From Halosegnis longus (GTDB taxonomy: Archaea; Halobacteriota; Halobacteria; Halobacteriales; Haloarculaceae): DNA of 64,000 bases. This document shows positions 35,086 to 36,771 of the stretch, piece by piece. The DNA lies in assembly GCF_009663395.1 (NCBI RefSeq), contig NZ_QKNW01000001.1, positions 2,232,001 to 2,296,000 on the forward strand. The letters run 5' to 3'. How positions within the stretch are numbered: position 1 is the first letter of the stretch; every line of letters begins with the position of its first letter. The notes beneath the pieces are model-generated. The model was not told the origin of the DNA. It did not search any database and saw nothing but the letters and a program-made list of their open reading frames with translations. The position numbers were made by a program, and so were the translations under genes.

Positions 35086-36111
35086 TCACAACAGCGAGTA
35101 GATGTGTTCGTCGTACGTCTCGCGGACGCGGTCGCCCCAGTTGTGGGTGTAGGTGTCGATGATGTCGTCGGCCACGTCGCCACGGAGATACTTCACGATG
35201 CCCCGGTCGCCGGTGCGGTCGCGCAGGTGCGTCGTGAAGAAGTGCCGGAAGTAGTGGGGGGTGACGTTCTCCTCTGCGCCGCCGCCGGTCCGGTACCAGC
35301 CCCGCCGTGTGGCGTACGACTGGACCGACTGGCCCACCATCCCGATGGTGAGTCGGCGGCCCCACTCGCTCGTCGAGCAGAACAGCGGCTCTCCAGCGGC
35401 TCGCGTCTCCGGGCGAACCGCGAGCCAGCGCTTGAGGACGCGTTTCAGCTCCGAATCGACGGGGATGACGGTCGCGCGTCGGCGCTTGTTCGATTCCGTC
35501 CGCTCTTCGCCGTTGACGACGACGCCGCGAGACGGCTCCGCGGAGACGTACAGCGAGTCCGGGCGGCCGTCAAGTCCGCCGCGGTGGCCGGTGTCGAACG
35601 CCGCCTGCACTTCACTGTCGTCGAGATACAGGTCCTGCACGTCCAGATTACACAGTTCCCCGACACGCATCCCGGTCTTGAGCAGCGTCACGACGACCGC
35701 GCGGTCGAGCGGGTGCTCGATGTCTGTGACGAACTCCCGCATCTCTGGGAGCATGATCTCACGACGTGCGGGGTCCGTGTCGATGGATTCGTCCATCTCC
35801 TCCAAGACGAGCGTCATCGGGTTCTGCTCGAAGACGCCGACCTGCGTCATGTACGCGTAAAACCGGTGGAGATACGACGCATACGAGGCGACGGTCGAGG
35901 GGGCGCGTCCGTCGCGGAGCGTGTGGACCCACGCCATACAGCCCCGTTGGGTCGCGTCGGCGAGCGTGACGCCCCGCTCCGCCCGGATGAAGCTCTCGAA
36001 CTCCCTGAGAACGCGCTCGTAGGCCTCTCGCGTGCGTTCGGTCTTCCCGTGGTAGGTGAGGTCCTGGAGGAAATATCCGACGGGATCATCCGGGTCGGCG
36101 GTCTCACTCAT
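35086..36111 (-). CDS. Chromosomal tyrosine recombinase/integrase (XerC/D-like)
   Basis: A 341-residue site-specific recombinase. The N-terminal SAM-like core-binding domain spans residues 1-110 (TREAYERVLREFESFIRAERG), the catalytic domain 125-341. Catalytic residues seen are Arg in LLKTGMRVGELCNL, the His-x-x-Arg box in TPHYFRHFFTTHL, and the nucleophilic Tyr in IDTYTHNW; the usual LGH motif is LRG. There are no phage or transposon genes around it, so it is probably a resident chromosomal recombinase, not part of an integrated element. Its ATG lies within the end of the DUF5805 gene (8-base overlap). A 21-bp inverted repeat lies upstream of that gene. Confidence 0.9.
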   Translation of the reverse strand: MSETADPDDPVGYFLQDLTYHGKTERTREAYERVLREFESFIRAERGVTLADATQRGCMAWVHTLRDGRAPSTVASYASYLHRFYAYMTQVGVFEQNPMTLVLEEMDESIDTDPARREIMLPEMREFVTDIEHPLDRAVVVTLLKTGMRVGELCNLDVQDLYLDDSEVQAAFDTGHRGGLDGRPDSLYVSAEPSRGVVVNGEERTESNKRRRATVIPVDSELKRVLKRWLAVRPETRAAGEPLFCSTSEWGRRLTIGMVGQSVQSYATRRGWYRTGGGAEENVTPHYFRHFFTTHLRDRTGDRGIVKYLRGDVADDIIDTYTHNWGDRVRETYDEHIYSLL

Positions 36112-36517
36112 CGGTGGAGAGGGTGTATCCGCCGTGGCGGCCGCTGTAGTGAACGCGGTTCTCCTGTTGGAGCGTTTCGAGCGTCTGCTCCAATCGCTCT
36201 TCCACGTCGTCGGTCACGCCGGCGAGCAGTTCATCCCACGACCGGTGTGAATCTGTGTCGAGCAGCTCGACGAGCTGTGTTTCGAGGCCGTTTACCCCAG
36301 GGTTTGCACCCTCCGAACTGCCATTGTCGGGGTTACTCGCATCGGAATCGCCCTCGGCGTCGAATTCGAAGCTTCTGCGCCCCGCCTGCACCATCGTCCG
36401 GACGAACTCCGCCTGACTCATCCCCAATCGGTCTGCGTCCTCGACCCACGCCTCTTTCTGGTAGCGCGGGACGTACGTTCGCACGCTCGCGCGCTCGCGG
36501 TCGTCGTCGGTTGCCAT
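36104..36517 (-). CDS. DUF5805-family protein coupled to the recombinase
   Basis: A 137-residue haloarchaeal protein. The N-terminal 50 residues (VRTYVPRYQKEAWVEDADRLGMSQAEFVRTMVQAGRR) look like a strand-helix-helix DNA-binding unit reminiscent of ribbon-helix-helix proteins; a Gly/Ser/Asn-rich linker follows, then a winged-helix-like C-terminal part (ELLDTDSHRSWDELLAGV...LETLQQENRVHYSGRHGGYTLS). I match the N-terminus to DUF5805 from memory. Overlap with the recombinase gene means coupled translation, suggesting a regulator or directionality/accessory factor for recombination. Confidence 0.75.
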   Translation of the reverse strand: MATDDDRERASVRTYVPRYQKEAWVEDADRLGMSQAEFVRTMVQAGRRSFEFDAEGDSDASNPDNGSSEGANPGVNGLETQLVELLDTDSHRSWDELLAGVTDDVEERLEQTLETLQQENRVHYSGRHGGYTLSTDE

Positions 36518-36611
36518 ACCGGGAGAAACACAGCCAGCATCTTCAAACTATCCCAGATTGCAGAATAAGTGGAGTTATCTCAGCATCTAACCCGCTATCT
36601 ACCGGCGGATG

Positions 36612-36632
36612 TAGATTATATCTAATAATCTA
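36612..36632. repeat. 21-bp inverted repeat, candidate recombination site or operator
   Basis: TAGATTAT (36612-36619) and ATAATCTA (36625-36632) are perfect inverted complements around a 5-base spacer ATCTA. It stands in the most AT-rich stretch of the neighbourhood, about 95 bases upstream of the DUF5805-recombinase operon and about 140 bases before the divergent GT2 gene. Inverted arms around a 5-8 base centre are the layout of tyrosine-recombinase core sites. A second loose pair, ATCTAGC (36628-36634) and GCTAGAT (36654-36660), overlaps its right arm. Confidence 0.5.
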
Positions 36633-36771
36633 GCTCATTATTTCGCTGCGTGGGCTAGATAGATGGATACACCTGGTGAATAGATCGGTGGAGCGAGTCG
36701 GAGCGACAAGCACGCCCCGGCCAGCGAGTAGTTTTCGGCGCACCTAAATATGGGCGTGTCCCATACCGAGT

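Follow-up and report, generated by a model that had tools for sequence, protein, structure and literature searches.

The locus analysed here very probably constitutes a single-recombinase Xer/dif module of haloarchaea with the DUF5805 protein as its obligate partner, a reading to which we assign a probability of roughly 0.85. It is located in the window, the whole stretch of 64,000 nucleotides of Halosegnis longus DNA that was analysed, and consists of a tyrosine recombinase gene, a DUF5805 gene and a 34-bp candidate dif core upstream of both. The initial annotation had proposed a haloarchaeal chromosome-resolution unit at this locus, and this proposal is strongly supported by the conservation of the locus, the dif-like core, the position opposite the origin of replication and the insertion of an element into the spacer of the site.

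According to the proposed mechanism, the recombinase (35086-36111) would bind both inverted arms (36549-36594) and exchange strands at the 6-bp spacer (36569-36574), and strand exchange at this place, opposite the main origin, would convert chromosome dimers to monomers. DUF5805 would be the obligate partner, probably binding the four 20-bp units U1 to U4, where it could build the synapse and set selectivity without FtsK, and/or autoregulate the operon, whose promoter would abut the candidate dif site. The assignment of the proteins to the units, recombination by the resident Xer and the role in dimer resolution are what we infer from the combined data.

The recombinase-DUF5805 gene pair

The recombinase gene (35086-36111, minus strand) encodes a candidate haloarchaeal Xer protein of 341 amino acids with Phage_integrase and SAM-like matches (Pfam PF00589 and PF02899), and the DUF5805 gene (PF19121; 36104-36517, minus strand) encodes a protein of 137 amino acids with a predicted N-terminal ribbon-helix-helix (RHH) and a predicted C-terminal winged-helix domain. 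The 8-base overlap of the two genes that had been reported initially is present in the coordinates of the open reading frames. The genome contigs were scanned with the recombinase as query and the best 80 relatives were kept; all of them belong to the Halobacteria, and DUF5805 was located directly upstream of the recombinase in all 80 loci. Of 292 Halobacteria genomes, 289 contain PF19121, in most cases as a single copy. The three genomes lacking it have each kept the recombinase orthologue, and the two of them that were inspected contain a diverged RHH-like or DUF5805-like gene directly upstream of it. Judged from occurrence and gene order, DUF5805 and the recombinase form a core haloarchaeal operon. 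A scan of viral contigs with the recombinase yielded no relative or true orthologue, and a close orthologue was present in only two PLSDB plasmid records (70% and 64% identity), both of which are megaplasmids (1.16 and 0.99 Mb). On the Natrinema megaplasmid, the one of the two that was inspected, a dif-like site is also present with the recombinase. No description of DUF5805 was found in the open-access literature searched.

Two local rearrangements were observed around the pair. On the other side of the site, one genome (G064; L346 2500-5064) contains an incomplete and broken copy of DUF5805 and the recombinase in inverted orientation. In the second-closest relative (L002), a local inversion carried the pair together with its glycosyltransferase neighbour, since a beta-lactamase-fold gene located downstream of the pair both in the window and in L001 is found on the opposite side in L002.

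The residues R149, K209, H286, R289 and Y321 of the recombinase, mapped on XerD, are invariant in the alignment, and the catalytic R, K, HxxR and Y set expected of Xer proteins is complete. The fifth catalytic position, where most family members have His or Trp as expected of Xer, is occupied by an aspartate (D312) that is likewise invariant, and our claim is accordingly phrased such that the system would work like Xer/dif. Against the XerA model (NCBIfam equivalog NF040815) the recombinase scored 110 bits, below the curated cut-off of 220 bits, and a canonical XerA above this cut-off was present in none of 39 haloarchaeal genomes, for which reasons the recombinase was not filed as XerA. Additionally, the genome of the window encodes a second, XerA-like recombinase of 312 amino acids (G000:C1:453235-454086), which at 205 bits remains just under the cut-off; scores of more than 190 bits occurred in only four of the 39 genomes. 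The AF2 model of the recombinase (pLDDT 83) gave structural matches to the Tn1549 integrase, XerA (4a8e/5hxy), Cre and XerH (5jjv). The AF2 model of DUF5805 is of low confidence (pLDDT 67.8), and Foldseek returned RHH and winged-helix matches, none of them significant, the best being VapB, NikA, CopG, Arc and CdbA (E > 0.1); its prediction as a DNA-binding protein of the RHH plus winged-helix type has low confidence.

The candidate dif site and its accessory units

The alignment of the upstream regions revealed the candidate dif core A-N9-ATAA-N6-TTAT-N9-T at 36555-36588, with the 6-bp spacer GTGGAG (CTCCAC on the gene strand) at 36569-36574. The core is located upstream of the DUF5805-recombinase operon in 109 of 110 loci, including those of a second search, and in nearly all of these approximately 110 haloarchaeal loci it is positioned 62-67 nt before the DUF5805 start. 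ATAA-N6-TTAT is fixed in the main group. Across the 75 well-anchored loci, ATAA and TTAT are 97-100% conserved, and symmetric outer A/T positions follow 10 bp beyond them; in family f3, TTAG replaces TTAT in one arm. A TATA-like box (TTTGAAG; 36541-36547, minus strand), which lies some 25-30 nt ahead of the ATG of DUF5805, coincides with a conserved TTGAAGT column and points to a leaderless promoter at this position. A dif-like core upstream of the pair was not found in two deep-branching genomes. In these, the palindrome GTCTAAYGTTAGA (L241 near 985, L242 near 1045) is situated at the start of the diverged DUF5805-like gene, either overlapping or adjoining it, and may be regarded as a candidate operator.

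A pattern search detected ATAA-N6-TTAT only once in the 2.77-Mb genome. In 116 genomes, matches of the strict form away from the pair were about as frequent as those of a reversed-pattern control, and the genome survey gave no further candidate that exceeded chance. Two inverted arms, a 6-bp spacer within the range of 6-8 bp, inner ATAA and TTAT and one site per chromosome, the features of Xer/dif sites, were all found. The dif site of E. coli has the same ATAA...TTAT ends around a 6-bp spacer. These ends also characterize the published dif sites (Cortez et al., PMC2958812), and no description of a haloarchaeal dif site was found in the open-access papers searched. Neither second sites nor insertions were found in the stretches examined near the degenerate loci L091 and L100, and, among the matches listed, those of the 14-mer core pattern in viral contigs are likely chance matches. 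Two further palindromes were observed at other places. The two related genomes G055 (L235 near 3094) and G083 (L236 near 2929) have a second dif-like palindrome, CATAA-ACTGCA-TTATG (in one orientation), elsewhere in the chromosome, within an AT-rich region common to both. In two congeneric species, an identical 34-bp palindrome of the ATAA-N6-TTAT form, ATACAGGGTAATAATATTTGTTATTCCTAAATAT, is located at a non-Xer locus (G089, L237 near 2523; G079:C2:520043).

The core arms extend to a 20-bp unit (TTATC...TnTGG-AC). The gene-proximal arm unit U4 (TTATTCTGCAATCTGGGATA; 36549-36568, minus strand) abuts the TATA-like box, and U3 (TTATCTCAGCATCTAACCCG; 36575-36594, plus strand) is the gene-distal arm unit. 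Two upstream accessory half-sites form the arms of an inverted repeat, I1: U2 (36618-36637, plus strand; score 15.4), at a fixed position 43 bp from U3, and U1 (36651-36670, minus strand; score 10.8). In most clades a unit in '-' orientation lies 43 bp from one arm and one in '+' orientation near 105 bp from the other, spacings that amount to about 4.1 and 10 helical turns; family f3 has '+' units near -119, -84 and -53. In total, the upstream regions contained 285 units compared with 71 in shuffled sequences. The idea that DUF5805 has its operator here is compatible with this sequence arrangement, because the same units overlap the promoter, and an operator role of the site DNA is likely to be additional, not alternative, to the dif role.

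The initial annotation had sought the recombination site in a 21-bp inverted repeat at 36612-36632. The perfect 8-bp arms separated by 5 bp are present, as is the stretch TTATATCTAA at 36616-36625 that had been likened to one arm of the Thermococcales dif site. The repeat is ruled out as the site by its lack of conservation: such a repeat occurs in only one of 109 orthologous upstream regions, TTATATCTAA occurs in the window alone, and the true core lies approximately 40 bp nearer to the genes. The repeat is marginal with respect to chance, an equally good one being present in 1.6-2.8% of dinucleotide shuffles, and a genome search for inverted copies built on its motif gave no match. It overlaps the genuine conserved half-site U2 and was judged incidental.

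In the relative G069, the 6-bp spacer is interrupted precisely by a 2,041-bp element (approximately L345 1737-3783; G069:C1:1402036-1404082). In G272, a congener, the uninterrupted site reads AATAA-CTGGCC-TTATCCTC, in which the right arm begins with TTATCC; in G069, the left junction (attL) reads AATAA-CTACGT-TTATTCGC, beginning with TTATTCG, and the right junction (attR) reads TCTCA-GTGGCC-TTATCCTC; blastn likewise places the break at this base, within the spacer. The insert codes for a tyrosine integrase of 208 amino acids and for a VapBC pair, i.e. a VapB-type antitoxin and a PIN protein, and the insertion has restored a complete core at its left end, as do insertions of IMEX elements at bacterial dif sites (cf. 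Legionella, PMC9765430). This single case shows that crossover can occur inside the haloarchaeal spacer. The insertion may have been catalysed by the integrase of the element itself, not by the resident Xer, and the element probably belongs to a class of haloarchaeal elements that use dif.

Moreover, related species often carry the spacer as its exact reverse complement, as in the window (CTCCAC) and L001 (GTGGAG). The Halorubrum spacers GTGACC and GGTCAC require at least six changes on the tree by parsimony, some nodes of which are weakly supported, and 7 reverse-complement pairs were counted among 60 distinct spacers compared with 1.7 expected (P 0.0006). In the Halorubrum examples the outermost arm asymmetry is kept, which restricts the flip to the symmetric core. 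Such flips could be the result of template switching on the palindrome or of two rounds of antiparallel recombination.

Chromosomal position and alternative explanations

The position of DUF5805 relative to an oriC1-type orc1 gene, used as proxy for the origin, was determined in 41 complete or near-complete chromosomes. With single contigs assumed to be circular, and with several origins in haloarchaea, the median distance was 0.452 of the circle (0.5 being exactly opposite), and the locus lay at 0.40 or more in 37 of the 41 chromosomes compared with 8.2 expected. The nominal P value of about 1e-22 is too small, because the genomes are related and not phylogenetically independent. By the Orc1 proxy the locus thus falls into the terminus half, the location of Xer/dif sites, and the antipodal position was seen across seven family-level groups. 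The radA gene, as a control, was origin-proximal (median 0.046; none of 41 at 0.40 or more), and the neighbouring glycosyltransferase (agl) gene was randomly placed (median 0.206; 9 of 32), so that shared synteny alone is insufficient to account for the antipodal position. No reproducible switch of GC skew or of ASPS/KOPS-like oligomer polarity was detected at the site within flanks of 20-40 kb; one 5-mer was considered as a polarised marker and rejected, its apparent polarity in 11 genomes having failed in 10 others.

The arrangement of the units invites the view that they are an operator only, on which DUF5805 or the recombinase would autoregulate the operon by means of four in-phase half-sites, the true dif being elsewhere or nonexistent. 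The units stop at the TATA-like box at a constant distance from the start codon, the upstream units share the arm motif at fixed positions and clearly outnumber those in shuffles, and DUF5805 is a predicted DNA-binding protein. We nevertheless consider this view improbable, as it leaves unexplained the exact geometry of the dif core, the catalytically intact tyrosine recombinase in the operon, the antipodal position and the integrase element that has entered the spacer, and the genome survey offered no second site above chance.

A second alternative is that the pair represents an integrase, resident or domesticated, with an adjacent att site that simply attracts mobile elements as a hot spot and plays no role in chromosome maintenance. 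The recombinase family is indeed common on mobile elements, and the G069 element occupies the site, but the gene is near-universal and single-copy, no relatives were found in viruses and plasmids carry it very rarely, a core is retained in 109 of 110 loci with an element in one case only, and across seven family-level groups the locus lies opposite the origin, which together make this explanation very unlikely. Repeated flipping of the 6-bp spacer between species could be taken as the trace of an invertible switch or phase-variation unit that flips a segment to control genes, and an inversion unit had also been suggested initially. This can practically be dismissed: at the kilobase scale an inversion unit finds no support, flipping is restricted to the spacer, differences among the flanking neighbours are those of ordinary rearrangement, and no invertible segment is defined because the genome lacks a second copy of the site. 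The single-recombinase Xer/dif module with its DUF5805 partner remains the preferred reading. A tentative and rather doubtful extension of it is that haloarchaea exchanged XerA/dif for a separate clade of Xer whose obligate RHH/winged-helix partner organises four in-phase half-sites, that selectivity for dimer resolution would come from this locally encoded DNA-binding protein and not from an FtsK-type motor, and that spacer flipping would be the footprint of homology-independent antiparallel strand exchange.

Comparison with known recombination systems

Dimer resolution in haloarchaea, with their circular, polyploid and multi-origin chromosomes, has so far been an open question. A review from 2020 counted 12 xerC/D genes in Haloferax volcanii, four of which had been deleted without loss of viability, and left their role undetermined (PMC7776575). 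The data presented here name one gene pair and one 34-bp site, which now form a directly testable system, and suggest a function for DUF5805. For haloarchaeal chromosomes the site provides a landmark on the terminus side; it is also a natural target for integration and might serve as a tool for site-specific recombination in halophiles.

With the archaeal XerA/dif systems of Pyrococcus, Sulfolobus and Thermoplasma (PMC2958812, PMC8371274) the haloarchaeal module shares the single tyrosine recombinase, inverted arms with ATAA/TTAT ends around a 6-bp spacer, one site per chromosome and the terminus-side location; the Thermococcales dif core is likewise ATAA-N6-TTAT. It differs by a recombinase that scores below the XerA cut-off and has Asp at the H/W position, by the obligate DUF5805 partner, by a second conserved block about 10 bp further out in the arms and by upstream accessory units. 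Moreover, the Thermococcales dif site is located away from the xerA gene, whereas the haloarchaeal site lies beside the recombinase operon. In this respect it resembles the XerS/difSL and XerH/difH modules, in which one recombinase is genetically linked to its site and is slightly longer than XerC/D, as is the haloarchaeal protein (PMC5357621, PMC2731167). The sites of these modules are unrelated to the haloarchaeal one (difSL has 31 bp with an 11-bp centre), and the portions of the reports consulted mention no RHH/winged-helix partner, in contrast to the haloarchaeal module with DUF5805.

In the plasmid cer and psi systems, a core site is combined with phased accessory DNA, and partner proteins could provide topological selectivity. 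The haloarchaeal accessory units differ from these in resembling the core arms, the gene of the partner would belong to the operon of the recombinase, and topological selectivity is putative. The XerL/dif system of the Legionellales (PMC9765430) is likewise a single-recombinase system that was revealed by a mobile element at a terminus-proximal dif site; it is bacterial, with activity and phenotype proven by experiment, whereas the haloarchaeal system is deduced from sequence.
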